This document shows positions 1 through 34,202 of a DNA stretch of 64,000 nt, piece by piece (within the stretch, counting starts at the first letter, position 1; every line of letters begins with the position of its first letter). The stretch lies in the NCBI GenBank assembly GCA_029204225.1, contig CM055102.1:8374280-8438279 (forward strand), in the 5' to 3' direction. Origin of the DNA: Diphasiastrum complanatum (taxonomy: Eukaryota; Streptophyta; Lycopodiopsida; Lycopodiales; Lycopodiaceae). The notes below the pieces were generated by a model. It was not told where the DNA came from and made no database searches. It worked only from the letters and a program-made list of their open reading frames with translations. A program made the position numbers and the translations under genes.

Positions 1-1041
<1,041 letters not shown>

Positions 1042-2250: not shown

Positions 2251-3423
2251 TTTTAGTTTAGAGGATGTTATGTTGATTCTGTGATTCCAGTAAGAGTAGT
2301 TTTAGTTTAGTTCCCTGATGTTTCTGTAGATTAGTTAAGTAATAATTTGCAGTTTGTAATAATAAAGCAAGAACTGAAACAGTCTATAGAAAGTAGGAAT
2401 CAAGTTCTGATAGATCCTATATCCAAGTTGAGCTTCCATTGCCAGTAAAGGATCGAGATCAGGTCATAGGTGTGCCTTTGACAGGCGGGTACATCATTGT
2501 TATACTACAACCAGATTCAGTGACTGAGCCTTTGCATATAGATTTGTAACCACGTGAATCCTTGTCAAACTGAATCTCTGTCAGATAGTATCGAGCTAAC
2601 ATTCAGACAGAGAACCATTGCTAAACACTGTCAAGCTTCCGCTGCGACAGCCGAGTAGATGCCATCCGTAGTAGAATCATCCATGAGAGATCCTACTGCA
2701 ACATGGCTGGTCGTTGGTAAGCAGATTCTGTGAGGCAGAATCAATGCTAGCTGACAAAGAAGATACTTGCGCTAACAGCTATTCGTTATGATTTTTTCAC
2801 ATATCCTATTCTTCTTCATCTTCAATATGCTTTCAAAGCGACCGTGTAGTTTGGTACCGCCCATCTGCCACTATACAAGAGGGTTGTTCAAAGCTGCCTC
2901 TAGGTATGTATACATTACATGCATCATTTTATGGTAAGTAATACGCATGAGATACGATCTTAATTTATGATTTGAATAGGCTACATTGAGGCTTGCGGCC
3001 TTGTGGCTAAAAGATTGCAATAAGCAATTTGTTGATCACACACATATTGTGATAGTCGCTGATTGCTGACAGCTTTTGTAAAACCAATTTGCACATGTTT
3101 AGCAAGCGTCCTTTCATTGATTTAATATATACCAAAGACTAATAATTGATATGGACTAATACATGTTACACTTATTAGCATGGCTTTTGTCCTGATACGG
3201 TAATATGACGACTTAGCCTATCGCTAAGATTCACAAGTGAATGGGAAGATTGGGCTAAGATTTTTTATTTTAAACTAAGTTGTTAAGTAGCAATGCTTAT
3301 TTTGTACTCCTCACATACTAACTCGCGTGGTTTTGTGTTGTGGGATGGTGGCAGGTACCAGCTGGATGTCTTGAAATAAGTCTTGCTTTATGGTGTTTTA
3401 CTGTACTGTATTTTACCTCTCAG
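2251..3423. other. Unassigned DNA between tandem repeat and copia remnant
   Basis: No coding signal or terminal repeat was recognised. It may contain old LTR sequence belonging to the copia remnant to the right, but no matching partner was found in the window. Confidence 0.35.
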
Positions 3424-4550
3424 CCAACAAAAATAGTTTTAAAAGAATGCTCATCTAATTTCTTTCTATTGTCATTTGGGACATGAGCATAGGCAGTACA
3501 TCCGAATACTCTCAAATATTTCAATGAAGGTTTGGAACTTGTCTAGTCTTCATGAGGGGTCTTGTTATCAGGGAGGCCTTTAGTTATACATCAATTCTGC
3601 ACGTAGGTCACTATTGAAACAACATGTTGCCAGAACGATTTGGGCAACGAATCATGAGTTATCATGCATTTGACAAACTCGACTAAGGTCCTGTTCTTCT
3701 TTTTTGGCAGTCCATTCAATTGTGGAGAATAGGAAGCAGCAAACTGCTGCTCGATGCTATTGGCTGAGCAATAGTCCTTGCACTCATTTGAGATGTATTC
3801 ACCGTCGTTGTCGCTTCTAAGAGCTTTGATCTTCTTGCTTGTCTGCAACTCAACATTTTTTTTGTATTTCTTGAAGAACTGGAAAGCTTCATATTTGTGC
3901 TTTAGAAAATATACAACAGTTCTTTTGGAATAGTCATCTATAAATGTAATAAAGAATTTAGCACCAAGCAATGATGGTGTTTCCATTGGGCCACATATAT
4001 AAGTACGTACAATGTCTAGCAAATCTTTAGATATATATTATTGATTTGACTTAAATGGCCTTCTTGCATGCTTTCCTATGATATAGCTCTGGCAAACATG
4101 AGGGTCGACAGTTTGATAGTCTAAGTCATGAACATCTAGACATGTTACCTATCGATACGTGATTAAGGTGACCAAGTCTATAATGCCAAATCAATCCTTT
4201 ATGATTAGATGGTGAACTACTTAAAGCACAATCAGTTACAAAGTTACAATAACTAAGCCTATAGAGATATCCTTGCCTCTTTCCGAGTGGAAAAATCCTC
4301 TTGCTAATTTTATCAAGAATCTGACAGGAATCTACCTGAAACTCTACCCTATGTCCTAAGTCTCTAATTCGACTGACCCCGACAACAGATTTGTTGTCAG
4401 GTTCAGGACATATAATAAATTTGGTATGAGCTTCGATAATCCATTCTGAAAACTCAGTCTTACAGTCTTCACCTTCAAGGCTGAGTCGTCAAGATATTGT
4501 CATCTATTCCCTTGTATTTCTACATACTATTAGGAAACACGTGTGTATCT
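3424..4550 (-). pseudogene. Ty1/copia pol remnant (pre-integrase and integrase)
   Basis: Read on the minus strand this is a decayed copia polyprotein. From the right it shows a protease/pre-integrase stretch with LGKRQGYLYRLSYC and the HYRLGHLNH zinc-binding segment. The integrase core follows (3591-4022: FFITFIDDYSKRTVVYFLK, then ALRSDNDGEYIS and ERKN-like KKKNRTLVEF), then the downstream RVFGCTAYAHVP motif near 3500. Frameshifts and stops separate the pieces and no intact ORF spans them. The same family recurs at 53590-53930 and in the internal region of the copia element at 13-17 kb. It is non-functional. Confidence 0.85.
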
Positions 4551-5305: not shown

Positions 5306-9009
<3,704 letters not shown>

Positions 9010-10760: not shown

Positions 10761-12099
<1,339 letters not shown>

Positions 12100-13223: not shown

Positions 13224-14383
13224 TGTTCTTGGATTATTCTCCTTCCTACTAATCGACTAATCGGTTTTTAATCTTCATCCAACTGTTTATCCAGCTCTGC
13301 GGATTTTCCCGTGTCTTTATACAGTCTGTAGAATTACAAGTGTTTTTACACAGTCTGTAGAAATACACTGAGTTTGAAAGCAGTGTTGCATTTTCTCTCT
13401 CTACAAACCCGACAGTGTCGCCTGTCAGGAATCTCGTGTAAAAATACAGTGTCAGCTTTCTCACATTTTTCTCCTATCAGGAATTACGTGTAAAAATGCA
13501 GTGTCGTCTTTTTCGTCTTTTTTGCCTGTCAGGAATTACGTGCAAAAATGCAGTGTCACCTTTTTCGCCTGCCATAAATTACGAGTAAAGATATAGTGTC
13601 ACATTTTTGCCTGTGGCAGTTTATGTTCATTTATTGCAGAATGACAGTTTACGTTCATTTATGCAGGCAGACTGTTTACGGCCGATTGTCACCACTTATC
13701 AACAAGCAACTTCTGAGAAGAACTGGATGAATGTTGGCGGACTCCAGCCAACTGGCAATCACATTTGACGACCTAATTACTTAGTATAAATCAGTTGTTC
13801 ATACATCTCATTAATAAGTAGAATGATCAATCAACATTGTGAATTGTGAAGGAGTTGAGTGTTATTACATGACGCTTCCTATGCTCTCATCAAACAGATC
13901 GTTCACAATCAGAAAGTATTGTTGTTAGCTCTCTATCAAACTTTCAAGCTTGAACTCTCTTGAGCATTCTAGCTCAGTCTTTTAGAGATTTATATTAGAG
14001 TTGCTATTGTGTCACTGCTTATCAGCAGAGTTGCTTATTTCATGCTTATTCTCAATTACTCATAGACAGCTTTAGAGTGCGCGGTTTCTATCCGCTATTG
14101 TCTTGCACTCATTAGCATCTGATCTTGTTTTTTTTAATCAATACTATTTTCTTATTGCGTTCAGTTTGTGTCAGAAATGCATGCATCTTTTGTAACTAAT
14201 AGAAATTGTCTTAGAATTGGATACTTTATGTTTGGCTACGTAATCACTTAGTATCTAGCGAAAGCTACTTGCTAAAGATTGAACGTGATTTTCATCACTA
14301 CTGCTTTGTTCAATTTTTTATGGGCGTAGTCATGCATTGGAAGTAGGAAGTTTTTGCATTCTATTACTCACCTATTTTTGACA
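13224..14383 (+). repeat. 5' LTR of the 13-17 kb copia
   Basis: About 1160 bp, ending in CA directly before the primer-binding site. It contains about four imperfect copies of a roughly 50-bp unit (GGAATTACGTG(T/C)AAAAATGCAGTGTC and TTTTTCG) between about 13410 and 13600. Confidence 0.8.
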
Positions 14384-14480
14384 TGGTATCAAAGCACACC
14401 TGTATGGTATCAGAGCATACCGACATGGTATCAGAGCATACCTACATGGTATTATATCATACTATTATAGTATCAGTGCT
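14384..14480 (+). repeat. Five tandem 21-bp copies of the primer-binding site
   Basis: TGGTATCA(A/G)AGCA(C/T)ACC-type units start at 14384, 14405, 14426, 14447 and 14468, exactly 21 bp apart. The first three keep the tRNA-Met complementary core almost intact; the last two have decayed (TGGTATTATATC, TAGTATCAGTGC). A normal LTR retrotransposon has one such site at the LTR edge. Confidence 0.9.
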
Positions 14481-15918
14481 AGATCACTACTTCTTTATCA
14501 GAACCGTTACGGTATCAGACTTGTGATCTCTATGATGGCCTAATACCATTTCGATATCAAATCAAAAAGCTCTAATACTTGATATCTTTCGCGATATCAA
14601 ATTGATATCATATTCTTCAGTTGCTTTCATCCTTTCAGTATCAAAGAATTGATTTCCTGTTGTTGGCATCACTACATCTTAGCGTCATCGATACAATCGA
14701 CAGATTAAGTTCCAGATGGATTCTCAAAGTAAAGTTAGTCTTATCGCATACAAGCTGAATGGATCCAATTATCATTTGTGGAAATTTAAGATGAAGACCT
14801 TGCTAATCGCCAACGAGTTATGGGATGTTGTTACAGGTATCGAAGTGAAACCTGAAAACAAAACATAAGACTCAAAATGGAAATCGAAGGATGGTAAAGC
14901 TTTTGCGCTTATTATCCTCAATATATCAGATACTCAAATTGGCCACATAGTTGAAGCTAAAATTTCGAAATAAGTTTGGGACATCCTAAGCTCATAGATT
15001 TAGGTCACAAGGTGGAATTTGAGTCTAATCAATGCAGAAGTATCGATATGAGTACTAAGATCCTTGCACTCGGCAAGAGGCATGGATACTTATATAGATT
15101 GGCACATTGTTATTCTGATTCCGAGAGAAAATATATCTCCACCGAATTCAAGGAGTACTGCCTTAACAACGACAACAATGATACATTACCTCCTATTCAC
15201 CTCAATCAAATGGTCTTGCTGAGAGAAAGAACAAAACCTTAATCGAATAGGCAAAGTGCATGTTATCACATGCGACACTTCCGAAGTCCTTCTGGACTGA
15301 AGCCGTTTCAACAACAACCTATATTCAGAACAGATGTCCTACTAAAGGTCTCTTAGACAAAACATCATTTGAAGTTTGGACAGGTACCAAACCTTCTTTG
15401 TCAAACTTACGAGTTTTTGGATGTACTGTTGATGCACAGATTCCTCACGATCTCAGGAAGAAGCTCGACATCAGAGTATTAAATGTATTTTCATCAGCTA
15501 CACTACTTCGGATCAAGCCTACAAGTTGTTCGATTCCATCGAGTCGATGATATTCACTAGCCGAGATGTCATCTTCATCAAAGATCAGTTTCAAGACCTC
15601 AAACGGTTTGGTTGAGAAACTTACTTTCAGATATCAGTCTGAATCAATCTACTACGACATTATTATCTTGTGATAATCAAAGTGCCATTGCCTTATCATC
15701 CAACCTTAGATTTCATTCTAGGAGTAAGCACATTGAACTGAAGTATCACTTTGTCAGAAGCAAAGTTCTCAACGAAGAGGTCAGATTGCAGTACCGTTGA
15801 ACGCAATATATGACATCGGATATTTTTACCAAAGCACTAAGCTTGGATGCACACAAAAGGTTTTGTGCAGAACTAAGTTTAAAGGTCAAGGCATTCATGG
15901 ATTCAGATTAAGGGGGAG

Positions 15919-17035
15919 CGTTGAAATATTCTCTTTCCTACTAATCGACTATTCGGTTTTTAATCTTCATCCAAATGTTTATCCAGCTCTGCGGATTTTC
16001 CCGTGTCTTTATACAGTCTGCAGAATTACAAGTGTTTTTACAGAGTCTGCAAAAATACACGGAGTTTGACAACAATGTCGCATTTTCTCTCTCTACAAAC
16101 TCGACAGTGTCGCCTGTCAGAAATCTCGTGTAAAAATGCAATGTCGGTTTTTTCGTATTTTTCGCTTGTCAAAAATTACATGTAAAAATGCAATGTTGCC
16201 TTTTTCGCATTTTTCGGTTGTTAGAAATTACGTGCAAAAATGAAGTGTCGTCTTTTTCGCAATTTATGTCTATTAGGAATTACGTGCAAAAATGCAGTGT
16301 CGTCTTTTTCGCCTGTCAGAAATTACGAGTAAAAATGCAGTTGCGCAATTTTTGCTTGTGGTAGTTTACATTCATTTATGCAGAATGACAGTTTACGTTC
16401 ATTTATGCAGACAAACTGTTTACGACCAATTGTCACCGCTTATCAGCAAGCAACTTCTGAGAAGAACTGGATGAATGCCAGCGGACTCCAACCAACTAGC
16501 AATTTGACGACCTAATTACTTAGTATAAATCAGTTGCTCGTACATCTCATTAATAAGTGAAATGATCAATCAACATTGTGAATTGTGAAGGAGTTGAGTG
16601 TTATTACACGATGCTTTATGCGCTCTCATCAAACAGATCGTTCACAATCAAAAAGTATTGTTGTTAGCTCTCTATCAAGCTTTCAAGCTTGAACTCTTTT
16701 GAGAATTCTAGCTCAGTATTTTAGAGATTTATTTTAGAGTTGCTATTGTGCTATTGCTTATGAGTAGAGTTGTTTATTTCAAACTTATTCTCAATTACTC
16801 AGAGACAACTTTAGAGTGCGCGATTTCTATCGACTATTGTCTTGCGCTCATTAGCATTTGATCTTGTTTTTCTGAATCAATACTATTTTCTTATTGTGTT
16901 CCATTTGTGTCGGAATGCATGCATCTTTGTATTGCTTTTGTAACTGATAGAAATTGTCTAAGAATTCAATACTTTATGTTTGACTACGCAATCACTTAGT
17001 ATCTAGCAAAAGTTAGTTGCTAAAGATTGAACGTG
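15919..17035 (+). repeat. 3' LTR of the 13-17 kb copia, truncated
   Basis: Follows the polypurine tract and matches the 5' LTR with many substitutions. Its internal 50-bp tandem region has about five units, compared with about four in the 5' LTR. It ends at TTGAACGTG (17035), whereas the 5' LTR continues for another 96 bp. Confidence 0.8.
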
Positions 17036-17260
17036 GAAACTTTTTTGAGGTTCCTCTCAAAAATCCCATATGTTAAGGAGTTTTTCGGCTACTAACAGAG
17101 ATATGCTTCTACATGCCAGCTTTTCCTTATAAAATCTTAAATTTATCACGTAAAAAATCCTGCAAAATTTCCTAATTCTCAATTTTTGGAAAAAGATGCC
17201 GATTCCATTCCTTAAGAATGCCGACTTTCTCGAACGCTGCAAGTTTGCGGGGAAGGCCCT

Positions 17261-17368
17261 ATGCCTGAGCCTAGCACCCACAAGGTGTTTTCTACTAGGC
17301 TTTTCAAAGCACTACATGAAGGGAATACCCTTCTTGCACGTGTCGTGAAGCCCACTGTGATGTTGTAA
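17261..17368 (+). CDS. Short upstream ORF of the non-LTR element
   Basis: A 35-codon frame beginning MPEPSTHKVFSTRLFKALHE and ending in TAA six bases before the main RT frame's first usable start codon. It is in another frame than the RT ORF. It may be the true N-terminus of the polyprotein separated by a frameshift, or a leader ORF. Nothing in it identifies a function. Confidence 0.3.
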   Translation: MPEPSTHKVFSTRLFKALHEGNTLLARVVKPTVML

Positions 17369-20100
17369 ATTCCTTGCTTGTCTCCTCTGGCCAGGTGGTG
17401 CCATACTGTCCGCCCCATCTTCGCCATCAGCTTTCTTCCTCTCTTTCTGTTTCTCAGCTTTCTCCTTCTTCCTCTTCTCGCCCCCGTGTTCCATGTGCAG
17501 GCTGTGGTCACCTTTATGTGCAAGGTGCCGGTCTTTCTCGCCATCATAACGCTTGCTCTGCTTTTCGTCAACAACTCGCATTAACCAATGTCGACCTTGC
17601 ACCTCATCCTGCTCCCACTTCGCCACCTGACTCGGCTTGGACCTGGATTTGCTCCCTTGATATTTTGACCGCTTTTCACTTGGGTTTTTCTCGTCCTCGT
17701 CTTTATGCACACATTCCCTTTGCCTTGTGCTTAGACGTCCAGAGAGCTTTGTCCTTACCTTTGTCTCGTCTGGCTTCCAACCCTTCTGATATTGCAACTT
17801 GGCATGCCTTTTTGCTTTTTCCTCTCTGGAGTTTGCCTCTGCCTCCTCGGGGTGGTGATGTTGGTCATAGGGAAACTCGCAACAGGCTTCATCGCTTTAT
17901 GTCAAGAGATTGGGAAAATCTGCAAGAAGAGCATTTCCTTCGCTGTCATGCGCTTGCTGCTCAGTGGGATTCGACTTCGGATGGTGTTTCTATACCCCTT
18001 GTTCATCGTCGGTTGCGTCGTTGTGTTTTACTTGGGCAAGTGGGTGAGTATTCTCGTGCAGCTCGTGCTCTAGCTCCTACAAGTCCAAGTACTCCTTCTG
18101 CTGCCACCCTTCAGGCTTTGGAGCTTCTTCACCCACCGGCAAATGACTCCCTTCCTTCTTTTGTTGAGGACTTTGAACCTGATTCCGATTTGCAGCTCTC
18201 AGAACCTCATTTTCTTAATGCTTTTCTACGCAGCCCTCATTTGTCAACTAGGGGTCCTTCTGGTATGGTTTTCGAGCATCTTCGTGACTGTTTTTCTCCT
18301 GATGACTCTGCTAGCGGGTTTGGTTTGCTCTTTCAAGTTTGCTCTTTCGTAGCATGTAGCCGTATTCCTCTTTCTATTGCTCGTATTCTTGGTGCTGCTC
18401 GTTTGATAGTCTTGGATAAGCCTGGCGGTGGAGTGCGTCCCATTGCTGTTGGAGAGGTTTTATACAGATTGGTTTCTAGGGCTCTTGGTTTTCAGCTTCG
18501 TGACAGTTTTCATGACCACCTATTTCCTCATCAGTTTGGTTGTGCTACTTCTGGCGGTTGCGAGACAGTCATACATGCTTTGCGTGCTACCTTGGATCTT
18601 CATCCATATTGGGTTGTCCTTCAGGTGGATGTTAAAAATGCTTTCAAATCTGTTTCCCGAGGGGCTATTTTCGAAGAACTTCGTGCGGCTCACGGTCCTC
18701 TCGCTCAGCTCACCCCGTTTGTTCGCTCTTTTTATTCCATGGATGCGCCTCTATATTTCAGTCATGCTTCTCGCTTAGGTGATGTTTCAGTTATCTCGTC
18801 TGCTAATGGTATCAGACAAGGTGATCCATTGGGTGGTGTTCTTTTTGCTTTGGCGCACTTTCGGGCATTGCGTGCTTCTTCAGCTGCTTTTCCTTCTTGT
18901 TTGTTTTCCTCTATTGCTGATGACACGCATATTGTGGGACCTGCTAATGACGTCTTTCCGGCTTTCCTTTATTTCTCTCAGCAACTTTCGGCTTTGGGCC
19001 TCATTGTCAATCCCTCTAAGTGCGTTGCTTGGTGTCCTCAGGGCCTCCTTGCTGAGGTCCCTTTACCTATAGGTTTCAATACTCCGGTTGATGAGATTAG
19101 AGTGCTTGTTATTCCTATAAGTTTATCGGATTTTGTGGCTTCCTCTTTGCGGGACACTTTGGACGCACATCTTCGTCACGCTGATCTGCTACCAAAGCTT
19201 GGCAATGCTCAAGTTGCACTAGGGATTCTCACTCAATGCTTCGCTCAACGGCCAAGTTATATTCTACGGTGTGTTCCTCCCTCTCCTGATGTTTTGACTT
19301 TGCTACAGGATTTCGATAATACTTTATCAGATATTCTGGGTCGCTTGATGGGTTCAGAATCCTTTCGTATTCCCAATGATCAATTCGTTACGCGACAAGT
19401 CTCTCTTCCCGCTTCATCCAGAGGTGTTGGTCTTTCTTGCACAGCTTCTATTGCTCCAGCTGCTTTTATGGGAAGTTGGGCCCTTGTTGCCTCTGCACTT
19501 ATCTCTCGGTTTCAACAGGACAACAAGCCCATTCTTCTCGATTCAGTAGCTCATGTGGAAACATGCATTCTTCCTTTCCAACAACATCTTCGTGCGGCCA
19601 AGGATCTCATTCCTCCACCTGTGCGAGCTTCTTTGCCTCCCTTTGAGTCTTTGCTTAGCCATCAACGTGGTCATTTTCAGAAGTATCTTTTGGAGCGCTT
19701 CCACTCTCATGCTTTCACTCAACTTCTCATTGATTCACCTTCCGATGAGACTCGGGCTCGCCTTTTGTCTTGTGTAGGCCCGGGTGCCGATGCTTGGCTT
19801 GTTGCAAGCCCTGTTGTTCCACACTTGCGTCTTTTTTCAGAGTTGTTTCTCACCACTCTTCGGTTTAGGTTGGGTCTCCCTCATCCAGTGCTGGCAGGTT
19901 TGACAAAATGTTCTTGTGGTCATCCTGTTGATCCTATTGGCACTCATCTCATGCGTTGCCCTTCTGGCGGAGAGCGTATTGCGACTCATGATTCAATTCA
20001 TGACGTATTGGCATCTATTGCTCATGAGTGCGGCTTTCATGTTGTTCGGGAGCAGACCCACATCTTGCCTGTGTCTGATTCACAGTCGACGCCGAGTTGA
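17320..20100 (+). CDS. Reverse transcriptase polyprotein with N-terminal zinc finger
   Basis: Open from just after a stop at 17317. No early ATG exists; the first near-cognate start is TTG at 17374, giving 908 aa (numbering used here). Near residues 41-61 a C-x2-C-x12-H-x3-C finger (CAGCGHLYVQGAGLSRHHNAC without its last Cys is CAGCGHLYVQGAGLSRHHNA) resembles the target-binding fingers of R2-like elements. RT motifs follow in order: VRPIAVGEVLYRLVSRAL, motif A VDVKNAFKSVSR (Asp 419), motif B GIRQGDPLGGVLF, motif C SIADDTHIVG (Asp 516/517) and motif D GLIVNPSKCVAW. A CCHC motif at about 846-862 (C-S-C...H-LMR-C) precedes the endonuclease. No APE endonuclease domain is present. All RT catalytic aspartates are intact. 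The frame ends at 20100 through a probable frameshift just before the nuclease core. Confidence 0.85.
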   Translation, partial: REYPSCTCREAHCDVVNSLLVSSGQVVPYCPPHLRHQLSSSLSVSQLSPSSSSRPRVPCAGCGHLYVQGAGLSRHHNACSAFRQQLALTNVDLAPHPAPTSPPDSAWTWICSLDILTAFHLGFSRPRLYAHIPFALCLDVQRALSLPLSRLASNPSDIATWHAFLLFPLWSLPLPPRGGDVGHRETRNRLHRFMSRDWENLQEEHFLRCHALAAQWDSTSDGVSIPLVHRRLRRCVLLGQVGEYSRAARALAPTSPSTPSAATLQALELLHPPANDSLPSFVEDFEPDSDLQLSEPHFLNAFLRSPHLSTRGPSGMVFEHLRDCFSPDDSASGFGLLFQVCSFVACSRIPLSIARILGAARLIVLDKPGGGVRPIAVGEVLYRLVSRALGFQLRDSFHDHLFPHQFGCATSGGCETVIHALRATLDLHPYWVVLQVDVKNAFKSVSRGAIFEELRAAHGPLAQLTPFVRSFYSMDAPLYFSHASRLGDVSVISSANGIRQGDPLGGVLFALAHFRALRASSAAFPSCLFSSIADDTHIVGPANDVFPAFLYFSQQLSALGLIVNPSKCVAWCPQGLLAEVPLPIGFNTPVDEIRVLVIPISLSDFVASSLRDTLDAHLRHADLLPKLGNAQVALGILTQCFAQRPSYILRCVPPSPDVLTLLQDFDNTLSDILGRLMGSESFRIPNDQFVTRQVSLPASSRGVGLSCTASIAPAAFMGSWALVASALISRFQQDNKPILLDSVAHVETCILPFQQHLRAAKDLIPPPVRASLPPFESLLSHQRGHFQKYLLERFHSHAFTQLLIDSPSDETRARLLSCVGPGADAWLVASPVVPHLRLFSELFLTTLRFRLGLPHPVLAGLTKCSCGHPVDPIGTHLMRCPSGGERIATHDSIHDVLASIAHECGFHVVREQTHILPVSDSQSTPS

Positions 20101-20557
20101 TCTTGTTCTTTCGCGCGAGGGGATTCGCACGCTTGGGGATGTTGTTGTTGTTGATCCTTCGCGGCCTGACCTCCTTCGTCGTGCTTCAACTACTCAGGGT
20201 GCCGCTGCTTCTCATGGAGCTCTAGATAAAGAGCGAGATTATTCACATCGCACTCTTGGAGAAGGCTTTATCTTTTTTGCTTTGGAAACATATGGGTGCC
20301 TGCATAAGAAATTCGATGATTTTCTATCATCCTGTGCAGGTTTTGCAGCGAAACTCCAAGGTCGTGGTGCCTCACCTTTATCTATCATTACAGCTTATTA
20401 TCGTCAACGAGTTTCAATGACTTTACAACGCACTCAGGCACTTGCAATACTTCGACGTGCCGTAGTTGCAGGAACGGCTGCTTCACAGCTTCCTGCACTA
20501 CCTAAACTTCCAACTGTTTTAACTAGCGACTTACACCAAGCAGTAGGCTTTATGTAG
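20088..20557 (+). CDS. Restriction-like endonuclease C-terminus, frameshifted from RT ORF
   Basis: In the frame +1 relative to the RT ORF the sequence continues RRRVDLVLSREGIRTLGDVV and then VVDP, the R-x-D-L and D-V-x-V pattern of the PD-(D/E)xK-like nuclease that follows the CCHC motif in RLE-type non-LTR elements. Further on, GEGFIFFALETYG resembles the conserved distal block of these proteins. It ends at 20557 with ...LHQAVGFM. The two frames overlap, and a one-base change near 20085-20090 would account for the break. The break could be a mutation, a sequencing error or, less likely, programmed. Confidence 0.7.
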
Positions 20558-20700
20558 ATACTCTGCGAGATTGTTGCTTTGTTATACTTATACAATATCT
20601 CAATTCGCCTTATGGCCTTTACGTTTTTTACATGCATTTCTTTGTACTCTGATGGGTTTTCCCATCTTTTATTAATAAAAACATGAATTTCTCTCTAAGG

Positions 20701-20863
20701 GACATATTGCCATAAAATTTGGCCTTGAAAACACCTTATGCCAAGTGGCACCTTGAGATTGGACACCGGTGGTGGTACACTATTTACCTCCCTTTTGCCT
20801 TTCATTTGTTGTATGTGACGAAGATATCGCGTACATCCTTTCCCGCCATTTCTCTCTCGCTCC

Positions 20864-20917
<54 letters not shown>

Positions 20918-21079
20918 ACTCTCGCCCCCTTTTTCTCTGCTCCATCCCTGTATTCGCTCGTTTTTCGTGGCTGCGAGGATCGACTATGCTGTTCACCATC
21001 GATCGCCAGAGGGAGTGCATTTGCATGCTTGCTTACAAGCAGCTCCTCATGCTCGAAGACCGCATGTGCTGCATGCAAA
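20701..21079 (+). promoter_or_regulatory. FAS1 upstream region and 5' UTR with CT array
   Basis: Only about 380 bp separate the non-LTR element from the predicted FAS1 start. It contains a CT-rich stretch and a (TC)n array (20867-20916). CT-rich tracts are common near plant transcription starts. An ATG at 20986 in another frame opens a short ORF that, after splicing, ends a few bases into exon 2 and so overlaps the predicted main start. No TATA box was convincingly placed. Confidence 0.4.
20867..20916. repeat. (TC)n microsatellite in the FAS1 5' region
   Basis: About 50 bp of TC dinucleotide, the shortest of the arrays in this window and the only one beside a gene start. Confidence 0.95.
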
Positions 21080-24000
21080 ATGCGTTCTCTAAACCCTCGT
21101 AAGTGCGATATCGGCAACCAATAATGGCTTTTTGAATCTCGGAAGGAAGGCATTGTTCTTTGGAGAAAGGAAGGCATGTGAGCTAGAGGCATCATTGTTG
21201 AGATTAGGTCTATTCTTAGTCTTGGATCTCTGTGCATTCTAAGCTTAGTGAAACCGGAGGCTTAAGTTTCTCTTAAAGAGGGGGCAAACAAAGTGAAAGA
21301 TGAATCCTGGGACTTGCGCATGAATGTAGAGATATTTGTGTTTACATGAAACGAGCAGTGGCCGTAGGATCAATTGTGCAAGTATCGTACGCATGATCGT
21401 AATGCATTTCGTTTTGATTCCATCTTATTTGCCATAATGAGGGTACGGATCTGCTGTAAAGTGTAGAATTGCATACCACCAGCTGTTAAATATCTGCAAA
21501 GAAAGTCATTGGCTGAACTTCGTTTGAGGATGGAAAAAGATGTAGATACATCGGTTCAACAGTTGGCCGACAACGCTGATGTCTTGGACAAGAATGCAGG
21601 CGTGAAAGCGCCAGGATCAAAACATCACAAGTCTAGAATACCTAAGAGGTGAGGGTTCCTCCTAAAATTTGCAACAACAATAAGCTGTATTGAAAATCAC
21701 GATCTGTCTGTTTCAGAAAAACCATGAATAGTGTTATAAGAAGTTCTTTCTTCTAGTCTCGGAGTTCTGAATGTTGCGGCATTTGATCTGCGTGCTTCAG
21801 GACGCACAAGCTATTCAATAATCCGAAAGATACAAAAGATGCCGTGCAGGCCAAAAACAAAAAGACAGAAAAAGTGAATCTTCGTCTCGACAGGGAAAAT
21901 ACCCGACAGGTGATGCCTTTACATTAGGATTGCATTGTAGATATCCAGGTTATCAAATAAACCATTTTCTTTCTTCATCAGGAGAAATTAAGGGAGAAAG
22001 CTGAAAAGGAAGCAATGAAGGAGCAAGCCCGAGTTCAGAAGGAGGCCGAGAAAGTAGTACGTATTGAATCTGTAGACGTGAAAAATTCACAATTAGCACT
22101 TTGCACAATAGTCTATGAAATGTTGAAAGTGGAATAGGAGGGTTCCAATCCATCTGCAATGGGTTTGCTTGTTATAGGGAAAATCGAAGCAGGAAGCTGA
22201 AAAACAAGCACTTAAGGAGCAAACTCGTGCATTGAAAGAACTGAATCGACAAGTGCGCATATTCAATACATCTATTTTGTTCACTTACTCACTAAAATTA
22301 AGTTAAATAGAGTTGCGCTGCTAGTAGCATAAGAACATTTAATAAATCGAGTCTTTCATGCGTTGGGTTTTGTTGTTTTATTGATTCTTCAGTAATGTGT
22401 TCCAAGCTTACATTTACCCGATTTATCTCAAGGTTTGAAGTTTATATCCTATAGTGATGCTCGTCATGACTCGTATCAATAAGATCGCACGATTTTGTTC
22501 AAAGGACAGAGATTGCATCAAAGAATTAATAATGTGGTTAATGATAAAAACTTTTGCCTTCAAAAGTAGAAAATGTGCTTTAGCTGTTGCATCATTGATT
22601 TGACAGGAGAAAGAGAAAGAGAAAGCTGAAAAGGAGGCTAAGAAAGAGCAAGCCCGAGTTCAAAAGGAAGCTAAAGAGAAGGAGAAAGTTGAGAAAGAGG
22701 CGAAGAAAGAGCAAGCTAGGCTTCAAAAGGAAACTCTAAGACAAGTAAGTGTCTAGGGCACATGGATCTTAATGATGCTTCAATAACATTATCGTCATTT
22801 GCTACTTCATGACCCTTGGTTGAAGGATTTTGGATTTGGCTTTTTTTGGATGCATTAGAGTACCAGATTGATCAATTATATTTCATCCAAAATGTTGTAG
22901 ATTATCACCATGTTTAGTTCAATCCACTGTCTTTTGTATGTGGTCTTGGGGAATAGTAGATTGTACTTGTCAAGAAGTGTGCAAGGGAATTCTTTCTAAA
23001 GTGGTTATACTTGTAGAAATAATGACCAAAACAATACATAACTTGGATATTGGGTATGTATCCATCGATGTTAGTATGAACTTGATGTTTGAAATGCATT
23101 GTTCTAGAGTGGTTTAGGAAATCAAAATTGTTTGGGATTGGAACCTAGTGCATCTATATTTTGGGTGAAACCAAAATGCAATGTAAAAGTTTGTAAATTA
23201 TGAATCAAACTATCAATGGTCACCATGTGGTTGATACCTATATTGGTGTACATCCTCTTATGGTTTGGTTTACTGTCAATTTGTCATAGCTTATAGAGGT
23301 CGTGAACATTGAGAGGCTTACATGTAAAGTAATGACACATATTAAAGGGGTCATACAAAGCATACACTTTGCAAGTTAGCACTGGCATACTAAACCTGAA
23401 ACCCGAAACTTGAAACGTGAAACTTGAAAATAATAACAATTCACATAATACAAGAAACTCAAGATTCCACACATGCCTCATGAGAATGATCAATATGTCA
23501 TAAACCATTTGATGTATATGTCATATGGCCATTAGGCAAGTACATGACTATGATAGATAGACGGATTTATTATCATGTGACATGAAAATAAAACCTAAAT
23601 CCCTAAAATCGGAGATGATCAAAAAAAATTTCATCATTGTCGTTGGTGGACAAATAGGAAGATAGGGAATCCTCTTCAAGGATGTGTTGATGTCTCCTTG
23701 AAACTTTACCTTTGTTGCTGCCTCTAGGTCTATCAGGGCCTCTCGCATTGTTGCTCCTTTGCTTGTGATGTTGTTGCCTAGTCTTGGGCTTGACGTGCAA
23801 ATCTAGCAGAAATACCCCATGCCTACCTGCCCTCCGTGTACAAGTGATCGGGATTAACAAAACCCACATTCTTGCCAATGTCCATCTCTATCTCATCATC
23901 CAAGGCCTCCTCCTCCTCCTCCTCCTCCTCATCCTGATCCTCTTCTCCTACATCCTTTGCATCGGCCCTACATGGACCTCGTGGCCTTGTGTTGCCTCCC

Positions 24001-27000
24001 AATGATACTCTGAAAACATCTCATCATTAGTCACCACCTCTATCTGTGCATGAACTATTGTGACGTCTATGGATCTAAGGCACTCCTCGAGGTTCACCTA
24101 TCCAGGCGTACCATGTCTTTGCATGTGCATGACTAGCCTTAGGTTGGGGGTGCAGTACACCAATGTTGTGCTTATTGCATCGAGTGCTTTAGTTTTGCTT
24201 ACAAGCCAAAGCAGAACAATCTTGAGCAAGGATGTGAGACAAGAAATCACACATGGGGTAGATTTGCATCGTGGCCTCCACTGTTGATGAGATAGATGGT
24301 CAAGATCTCCTCTAGAAGAGTGAAACAAGCAAATCCTTTGGCCGAGTGCCTTGTTTCAAGTTCATCTTGAAGGCCTTTGGTAAGTCCATTGATGCCATGC
24401 ATTATATTCCAAAAGAGCCATGGTCATGATCCAAGTGAGCTTTTTTTTCCTGAAAATTCTTTAGTCCTAGGAGCAAATAAAGTTAGAAGATAATGCCTTG
24501 CTTTACATAATTGTTTTGTATGCCTTGTCCGAAAAATTCCTTCAAGTCCTCAATAAGATGAGCTATGCTGTAATGGAGGTGCACACTTAGTTGTACACCT
24601 AACTAAAGATTTTGCATAGAATACATTTTGCAAATAGACTTTTTAGCAACTCATTGAAATAGCGCAAACCTGTATCATTGATAACATTGCTGGTTTATAT
24701 TTATCACCTTGCAAACTTGCATACACTTAATTTCTTTTGGTCCTTTGATATCAGGAGAAAGAGCTGAAGCGCCAACAGGAGGAAGCTGAAAAGGAGCAAA
24801 AAAGAAGGGAAAAAGAAGCGGCAGAACGCAAAAAACAAACAGACCTTCAAAAGCAAGCCACAATCATGGATCGATTTCTGCAGAGCCAGAAAGAAAAAGC
24901 TGACGCATTACAGACTCAGAAGCATGTCGAACACAGTTCGCAACCTTCAGTACTACTAAAAGAGAATGAAGAACGAAGAAGTTCCCAGCTATTCGTCACA
25001 ATCGCTGGGTTGGCCACATTGAGCATGGATCAGGAGTTGAATGCTAATAAGGAGTACAGTACTGTGGAACTTCTGAGGTATTATTAGTAAACTAGCAAGT
25101 TTGTTAACTTTGATGTTACTGATTGTTTAATCTGTATGCATGAATCGTGAATTGTGAATTGTGAGTTCCTTTTTGAAGTTCCGAAAGGAATCTTGGAACT
25201 TATTGTCAATCTGTGACATCGAGTGCTGGAACCGATTACCATATCTTTGTAGACAGCCTCAGTGCTATTCATTAATTTTTTAAATTGATCAAATCATTCT
25301 ATCTGGATAAATAGGAACCATGTGTTAGCTTGGAAGGCTTGGCATTCCTCTGAAAAGGTCTGGAGATGGGGAATACGGAGGTATCCTAAAGCTGTAGTGT
25401 ATAAGGAACTTAGGCTACAGGGCACATCTGCAGATACTTGCAATGGGACTACTTTGAGCCCAACATTGAAGCATGTTGGGAGCTCTCCTGCAAGTCAGGT
25501 TTGTAAACGACTTCATTCCCAAATGAATGGAACTCAAGATGTGAACCTGGAAAATCTTGATGTAGATTGGGAAAGTGGCTTGACAATGCAAGCTGGTAGT
25601 TCATTGGAAGACATTAAGAGTTATGCGTACAAGGACACAGGGAGTACCAACAAGCACAGGAAGCTCCTTCAGTTTGACAAGAGTCATCGTCCTGCTTACT
25701 ATGGAACATTCTCAAAGAAGAGGTAAGTGCATTGTGGTTTTATGCAAATAAAACATTATTAGCAGCTTTTATTTTAAGCGGTTAAATTTCGAATTTGAAC
25801 GTTATCTTAGATTCTAAGAATGTCTGCCTTGAGGACAGACAGTGAACAGGCATCTCATTATTAGTTTTTAACTTGAGAGTGTCATCTGTTTTGTATTTCG
25901 GTATAGTGAGACTATTGGGCCTCGCCGTCCTTTCGACAAGGACGCTTCTTTGGACTATGAGATTGATAGTGACGAGGAATGGGAAGAGGTAGCCCACCCA
26001 CAAATGTTCTGTCTTCTTGCAGTTGTCTTCTAGATTTTTAACATATTTTTAAAATTGTTTGAAGAAAATGTTGGAATATCAGGCAGCAGACTCATTTGTC
26101 TTGTAGATTAGGACCTTACTATGACAATGTTACCTAGCAAGCACTAAGTCTTCTTTTGACAGGACGATCCTGGTGAAAGTCTTTCTGATTGCGATAAAGA
26201 TGAGGATGATGAAAAGCTAGATGTTGAAGAGGATGAGGCTGCAGATGGATTTGTTGTCCCAGATGGTTACCTGTCTGAAAATGAGGTATTGCGCGATAGT
26301 ACTAGGAATCAAAGAGTATACTTTTGGCTTCTGTACACATCAGCATTTATGAACCTTCTTCGTCTTTGATGGTAATGTAAGTAGTTTTAGGACTAAATAT
26401 CCGTCCTTTTAGTTGTACGCAATTATAGAAATCCTATGTGATGTATGTCAATTGAACAATTTTCTTCTTAATTAATTGAGTAGTTTTCCACATGCTGAAG
26501 CACTGCTGCAATGAGTAGCTTTGAAGTGAGTGAGTAACGAGCAAAACAGACAACCATGGCTGTTGTGTCGAGCTGGATTTTTATTGTTGCTATTTTTTCT
26601 TAACATTTTTGAAGAGTTGCTAATCAGTACACAAGTGAGCATGTGTTTAGCTAACATAGACTGAGATGCGGTTAGAACTGATGTGTTTATCTGGTTTTGC
26701 ACTATGATCAGGGAGTTCAAGTAGAAGAATTTGAGGCAGAGCATAATTGTCAGAAGCAGACTGAAGCTTCGAGTTGTGAAAACCCTTTTTATGGTGACAC
26801 TGATGCAGAGCAGCAGACTCATTCAAAGCTCCAAAGTATTCTGAGCACTATGACAGAACATGCTTTGCGTTCAAATCGTCCTTATATCATATCGAACTTT
26901 TCAAATAATGGGTGCAGTGAAGGAACTGGACAAATTTTTTCTTTGAGCAAAACTGAGGAGTTGTGTCTTGAAGCTTTGAAAATGCAGACATTGATACCTG

Positions 27001-34116: not shown

Positions 34117-34202
<86 letters not shown>
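34117..34202. repeat. (TC)n microsatellite, about 86 bp
   Basis: Pure TC array that passes directly into a G-rich repeat block. Confidence 0.97.

Follow-up and report, generated by a model that had tools for sequence, protein, structure and literature searches.

The DNA considered here is a window of 64,000 nucleotides from the lycophyte Diphasiastrum complanatum (assembly GCA_029204225.1, contig CM055102.1, hereafter C11; C11:8374280-8438279). Next to the long terminal repeat (LTR) of a copia-like element it contains a copy of a long interspersed nuclear element (LINE) on the forward strand (Table 1). An open reading frame (ORF) of 926 aa (17320-20100, +) carries an N-terminal finger, a reverse transcriptase (RT) domain recognized by Pfam (RVT_1, 64.3 bits, E 1.6e-17) and a CCHC motif, and a frame shifted by one (19904-20557) carries RRVDLV..LGDVVVVDP. 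A first-pass annotation, made from the sequence alone, had reported the finger, the RT motifs, the CCHC and, one frame over, R-x-D-L...D-V-V-V, and all are present where it placed them. It read them as a LINE with a C-terminal restriction-like endonuclease (RLE) and no apurinic/apyrimidinic endonuclease (APE), the enzyme found at the N-terminus of plant L1 and RTE elements. Comparison with other copies in the genome upholds that reading: the window very probably holds one copy, 5′-truncated and with a broken frame, of an RLE-type LINE family that is dispersed in the genome. Fuller copies have one ORF of ~1,110 codons, predicted to encode a finger, the RT, a linker with the CCHC and an RLE of the PD-(D/E)xK type.

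Table 1. Parts of the LINE copy and its borders, in window coordinates.
Feature	Position	Strand	Basis
Probable RLE-type LINE copy, 5′-truncated	17328..20690	+	Shared start and end of similarity to other copies; mapped onto fuller copy L019
First-frame ORF: finger, RT, linker, CCHC, first part of putative endonuclease	17328..20100	+	Open frame itself from 17320
N-terminal finger C-x2-C-x12-H-x3-C, CAGCGHLYVQGAGLSRHHNAC	17494..17556	+	Motif in first-frame ORF
RT domain with VDVKNAF, RQGDPLGG, IADD	about 18415..19035	+	Pfam RVT_1
CCHC zinc knuckle C-x1-C-x9-H-x3-C, CSCGHPVDPIGTHLMRC	19909..19959	+	Motif and copy conservation
Predicted RLE and C-terminus, frame-broken	19960..20554	+	Profile, widened signature, copy conservation
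Frame break between conserved E and RVD of endonuclease	20093-20101	+	Comparison with copies
Second Asp of endonuclease	20138-20140	+	Signature position
Candidate distant Lys of endonuclease	20228-20230	+	K of DKERDY
3′ untranslated region (UTR), end ..AATAAAAACATGAATTT in window copy (..ACAGGAAGTT in most copies), no poly(A)	20555..20690	+	
CTCTCT at 3′ junction, element end or target preference	20691..20696	+	Loose 6-nt consensus, 40 kept junctions
Outside the LINE: 3′ LTR of adjoining copia-like element	15921..17035	+	Aligns with 13229-14287 at 87-88%

Copies of the element are spread through the genome, an assembly of 1.7447 Gb in 5,176 contigs (C1-C23 of 42-102 Mb each, C24 of 10.9 Mb). 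A search with the window protein gave at least 60 matches (55 scored of 7,383 candidates), with protein identities of 80-98% among the matches listed besides the window itself, and a 391-bp 3′ query gave at least 41 (40 of 1,339 candidates scored); both counts are lower bounds. Together they place copies on at least 21 of the 23 large contigs, none being listed on C19 or C20. Because copies at 80-98% protein identity lie elsewhere in the genome, the observed motifs are not due to chance. Thirty loci were fetched from the protein search, and once 9 duplicates of the same insertion had been dropped, 21 independent copies were left for residue counts and substitution ratios. These diverge by 2.4-6.2% (median 4.3%, 210 pairs), indicating that the sampled insertions did not happen very recently. 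Four loci (L013, L016, L018 and L036) retain open frames of 1,106-1,119 codons, L013 and L018 being one insertion. Collecting genomic copies, as the first-pass annotation had proposed, thus revealed a common 3′ end, a fuller form of ~4.6 kb with a single long ORF (finger, RT, CCHC, endonuclease) and dispersed sites.

The limits of the window copy were drawn from 28 comparisons, that is, the fetched loci minus the window itself and its duplicate L038. Similarity begins at 17328 in 21 of them and stops at 20683-20697 in 25; at the 3′ end the exceptions are L020, which is gapped near its end, and L035 and L037, in which similarity is lost at window position 20272. The extent first proposed, 17036..20700, enclosed a real element but needed correction at both borders, to a start at 17328 and an end at 20690, plus up to 6 nt. 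Positions 17036-17327 have no match in the fetched copies except L038, plus 25 bases in L012, and lie outside the element. Measured against L019, the window copy has lost the 5′ UTR and, provided that translation starts at the M of MVPQESS, some 37 codons from the front of the ORF. The description of this copy as nearly intact does not hold, given its 5′ truncation and single frame break. Among the 60 matches listed, the break is shared only with L038, which repeats window 16795-21598 in inverted orientation elsewhere on C11 (36.62 Mb, 98.9% identity, frame break included). The sense strand of the LINE (17328-20690) is very T-rich (35.6% T, 16.4% A), as in three other copies, and its long frame has 52.5% T at the third codon position.

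The C-terminal region carries the signature C-x1-C-x9-H-x3-C-x8-THD-x19-E-x15-RVD-x12-D. The pattern given with SLACS is C[1-3]C[7-8]H[3-4]C[9-10]RHD/N-x19-33-E-x9-21-R/KPD-x12-14-D/E (PMC12857005; this and the other papers cited were available in part, and statements resting on them reach as far as those parts), and this form was widened in the present analysis. The widened signature lies in a single frame in 19 of the 30 loci (14/21 without duplicates); it matched nothing else among 713,832 translated residues, and 0/100,000 shuffles. A profile from three PDB R2 endonucleases gave 11.2 bits to the read-through window C-terminus, against a maximum of 8.2 over 20,000 shuffles, and 2.9-13.4 bits to 16 copies. 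Individual copies scored 10.9 (L012), 10.7 (L009) and 7.8 (L034) against 9.8, 5.4 and 5.7 for the best of 10,000 shuffles. With a longer profile the region is collinear with the R2 endonuclease, but the scores are negative. RLE LINEs are described as having a variant PD-(D/E)xK core with the Lys further away (PMC5678591), which suits the K of DKERDY. This K, together with the H, E and Y of the RLE, is kept in 21/21 independent copies, and the two RLE Asp in 20/21. It is signature, position and conservation, and not profile score alone, that identify the region as an RLE at the level of sequence; the nuclease fold itself is predicted.

The remaining motifs are similarly preserved. In the finger, the first and second C are kept in 18/19, the H in 19/19 and the last C in 17/19 of the independent copies that cover it. 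The CCHC retains its first C, H and last C in 21/21 and its second C in 20/21. In the RT, the Asp of motif A and the two of motif C are kept in all 21, in agreement with the earlier statement that every RT catalytic residue is present. RVT_1 was found in 6/6 copies as in the window ORF, and when PDB was searched with a profile of six copies the best RT matches were R2 proteins (9nl3 and 9dou, E 2.1e-5). L1 ORF2p was absent from these matches at E<=1 and from another PDB search at E<=10, while an R2 fragment as query does find it (E 5.5e-6). An upstream APE, named in the first-pass annotation as evidence that would speak against it, was not found by Pfam in the ORFs examined (the window ORF, six copies and the N-terminal pieces of L013 and L016). 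Pfam also gave no RNase H or protease domain, and no Myb or finger domain in the two N-terminal pieces, the finger motif itself being present. APE LINEs do occur in this genome (L065-L068, with KQGC(P/S)LSP-type and ADD motifs). Of the genome's APE-family matches, the six top-class loci listed are mostly helicase-linked and are not LINEs; the helicase-linked APE endonuclease ORFs (L045, L047, L052 and L055) we take to be Helitron/Helentron-like.

The 5′ ends of the copies vary. Extension of six copies showed that L017 and L019 both begin with AGATGATGGCAGATG, sit in different flanks and measure ~4.6 kb up to the 3′ end; against this fuller element the window copy is 5′-truncated. On the L019 scale, starts lie at 3409, about 3737, 4173, 4263, 4351, 4387, 4496, 4614, 4985 and 5466. 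Copies starting at 4263 have upstream sequence in common, as do those starting at 4387 and those at 4173, and several shared starts reflect not truncation but different 5′ modules on one and the same body. In the upstream parts of L015, L020, L023, L026, L029, L031, L036 and others, at least three such alternatives stand at fixed joints on this body, in a manner that resembles an exchange of promoters or 5′ UTRs.

At the 3′ side, most copies terminate in ..AATAAAAACAGGAAGTT, without poly(A). Junctions were compared in 48 rows, minus 3 variant tails and 5 duplicates, leaving 40 (at most 39 independent, L091 and L093 being near-duplicates); 16 of the 30 fetched loci contributed, those left out including L035, L037 and, with their deviating tail end, L027 and L028. 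The six bases past the end lean to CTCTCT (21-25/40 junctions per position), and beyond them there is no consensus. Since 0/40 junctions run into a long CT array, though such arrays are common in the window, the balance tilts toward CTCTCT being the element end rather than a target preference. The flanks of the 40 kept junctions differ beyond 6 nt. Insertion is dispersed, unlike that of R2, and the site-specific insertion expected by the first-pass annotation is not seen. Neither the window nor 20 loci, taken together with 1.5-kb flanks, gave an RNA gene by Rfam, a search in which short fragments could be missed. In the most likely mechanism, the protein would nick dispersed target DNA by its endonuclease and, recognizing the element's own RNA, would start to reverse-transcribe it from its 3′ end, with the freed 3′ end of the target as primer. 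An early stop of reverse transcription would then leave 5′-truncated copies. A short copia fragment lies at the 3′ side of L032. Long perfect (GA)n/(CT)n arrays occupy window positions 927-1038, 1595-1728, 6764-6886, 11292-11428 and 34117-34202.

Several results weigh against assignment of this family to the RLE-type LINEs. Group II intron RTs rank directly after the R2 matches in PDB, above Bombyx R2; RT identity to R2 is 25-27%, not above the ~30% to the genome's APE LINEs; and in profile score these APE LINEs (9.6-15.7 bits) overlap with two R2 out of three (13.6, 17.5). When 11 short sequences were placed in a tree rooted on a group II intron fragment, with R2 as sole RLE reference and L013 and L066 left out, the element branched apart from R2 as well as from the APE LINEs (ultrafast bootstrap 83-90). 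The RT phylogeny suggested earlier, on this small scale, separates the element from APE LINEs and does not group it with R2; the position fits an early branch, 11 short sequences being too few to name a clade. The strict published signature is matched by 0/16 C-termini and the widened one by 10/16, the mismatches being THD where the pattern has RHD, VD in place of PD, and slightly different spacing; one of two R2 fragments fits both patterns and the other, its start cut short, fits neither. Comparison of the C-terminus by hhalign gave P 0.0075 and a probability of 5%, and its profile found nothing in PDB at E<=10; the proposed check against RLE profiles was positive over shuffles, and weak or empty here. 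Profile evidence for the RLE, taken alone, is weak. AlphaFold models made without an alignment have a predicted local distance difference test score (pLDDT) of 37 for the C-terminus and 35 for the RT, and were not used for fold searches.

Selection and insertion structure add to these points. The ratio of nonsynonymous to synonymous substitution rates (dN/dS) was taken across the 21 independent copies in the L009 frame, which has no stop in the 819 codons that run from shortly upstream of the RT to the C-terminus. It is 0.77 overall, with successive blocks at 0.95, 0.75, 0.69, 0.65, 0.75 and 1.38, the last covering the final 69 codons; the N-terminal part gives 1.09. Selection is therefore weak or diluted by dead copies. 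Target-site duplications above control were not found in the 23 loci tested (the 3′ end of L035 being unusable, and several of the 5′ junctions being joints between modules), and none scoring 9 or more lies near the window copy. The best shared junction stretches score 5-7, with one of 10 (L017), vs up to 9 in 506 mismatched pairs; the L017 stretch was rejected as a duplication, given that mismatched pairs reach 9.

Could a LINE of a type already recorded in plants account for these features? A 2022 review gives land-plant LINEs as L1 and RTE only, with an endonuclease, an RT and a tail of (A)n or (GTT)n (PMC9033089), and an N-terminal APE is given for APE LINEs (PMC5678591). An ordinary L1 or RTE element with accidental C-terminal motifs would accord with that list and with an RT identity slightly higher to the genome's APE LINEs than to R2, and the element does share with plant L1/RTE its LINE RT, CCHC and 5′ truncation. 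However, neither an APE nor an (A)n/(GTT)n tail was found in it, the endonuclease signature is absent elsewhere and in shuffles, L1 ORF2p is missing among the PDB matches and the tree sets the element apart from APE LINEs; accidental motifs are extremely unlikely. Dualen LINEs carry both APE and RLE, and a Dualen/RandI-like element whose APE had been lost or hidden is a second candidate. Such LINEs are known from green algae (PMC8226300, PMC3747384), but Pfam detected no APE in a 149-aa 5′ ORF or in N-terminal pieces of two copies, and L017 and L019, which have the longest shared 5′ end, begin ~1.1 kb before the ORF; this origin is very unlikely.

RLE LINEs are generally site-specific (PMC5678591), and because that source says "generally", missing site specificity is not strictly disqualifying. 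The family might genuinely belong to one of the site-specific clades (R2, NeSL, Utopia or CRE) and be seen mostly at off-target sites, which the common architecture, the weak specificity of some Utopia families and the loose CTCTCT would allow. With R2 (PDB 8gh6, 9dou, 9nl2, 9nl3) it shares the finger-RT-CCHC-RLE order in a single ORF, the best PDB RT matches and collinear RLE motifs; it differs in its varied flanks in place of a fixed ribosomal DNA site (28S), with no Rfam match in the 20 flanked loci, in THD/RVD vs RHN/KPD, in its distant RT, placed outside R2 in a small tree that is a weak test, and in lacking a Pfam Myb match, as judged from two N-terminal pieces. CRE, SLACS, MoTeR and FoTeR resemble it in an RLE with an RxD motif form (RAD in MoTeR and FoTeR) and differ in being described as site-specific or telomere-associated (PMC12857005). 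NeSL, Utopia, Hero and R4 are likewise RLE-type LINEs, and Utopia, found in Amoebozoa, SAR and Opisthokonta, includes families of weak specificity that are only partly at their target (PMC4640811). In contrast to these, the element has no U2, spliced-leader or other RNA-gene target found by Rfam, short fragments aside, and lacks Pfam matches to RNase H or protease domains. With 40 junctions differing beyond 6 nt and a tree position outside R2, membership of a site-specific clade is improbable. An RLE LINE by descent whose endonuclease is dead, and which spreads by copying in trans or by insertion into breaks already there, would explain why neither a clear target consensus nor duplications are seen, and would suit the changes RHD to THD and PD to VD and the dN/dS of 0.77 overall and 1.38 at the C-terminal end. 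Conservation of the RLE residues speaks against it, modestly, as 391/819 codons are invariant anyway, and we consider a dead endonuclease unlikely.

The assignment of the window copy to a dispersed RLE-type family leaves the rank of that family to be considered. It is possible, though on balance doubtful, that it represents a separate, early-branching land-plant lineage of RLE LINEs outside R2, NeSL, CRE and the other named clades, which has lost fixed-site targeting, occurs on most chromosomes and exchanges whole 5′ UTR/promoter modules. Relatives outside its own genome were not found in scans of viral contigs and of other genome contigs; tblastn gave one group II intron RT (E 0.04) against plasmids and nothing against phages, and NCBIfam a group II intron RT model far under its cut-off and one chance-level match. 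Proteins of similar general look occur in other eukaryotes, and the lineage may already be present in databases. No report of a land-plant RLE LINE was found in the literature, judged by titles, abstract openings and partial listings, with Repbase and most subscription papers outside that scope. As far as the cited literature goes, in the parts available, an RLE LINE family is new to the plant LINE list.

The surroundings of the window copy include other mobile sequences. The copia-like element upstream (13229-17035) has LTRs of ~1.1 kb that are 87-88% alike, with only ~1.6 kb between them, and copia-type gag/pol is also present in the window. Downstream of the LINE, at 25289-25726, lies a piece of a chromatin assembly factor 1A gene. 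These neighbours and the size of the genome suit a plant host.

An RLE family across this genome would show that an older branch of LINEs persisted, or arrived, in land plants. If the separate lineage is real, it would alter the accepted list of plant LINEs, which holds L1 and RTE only, and would represent a natural non-site-specific relative of R2. A dispersed RLE LINE would help to test how R2-like proteins choose their sites, a live question for gene-insertion tools.

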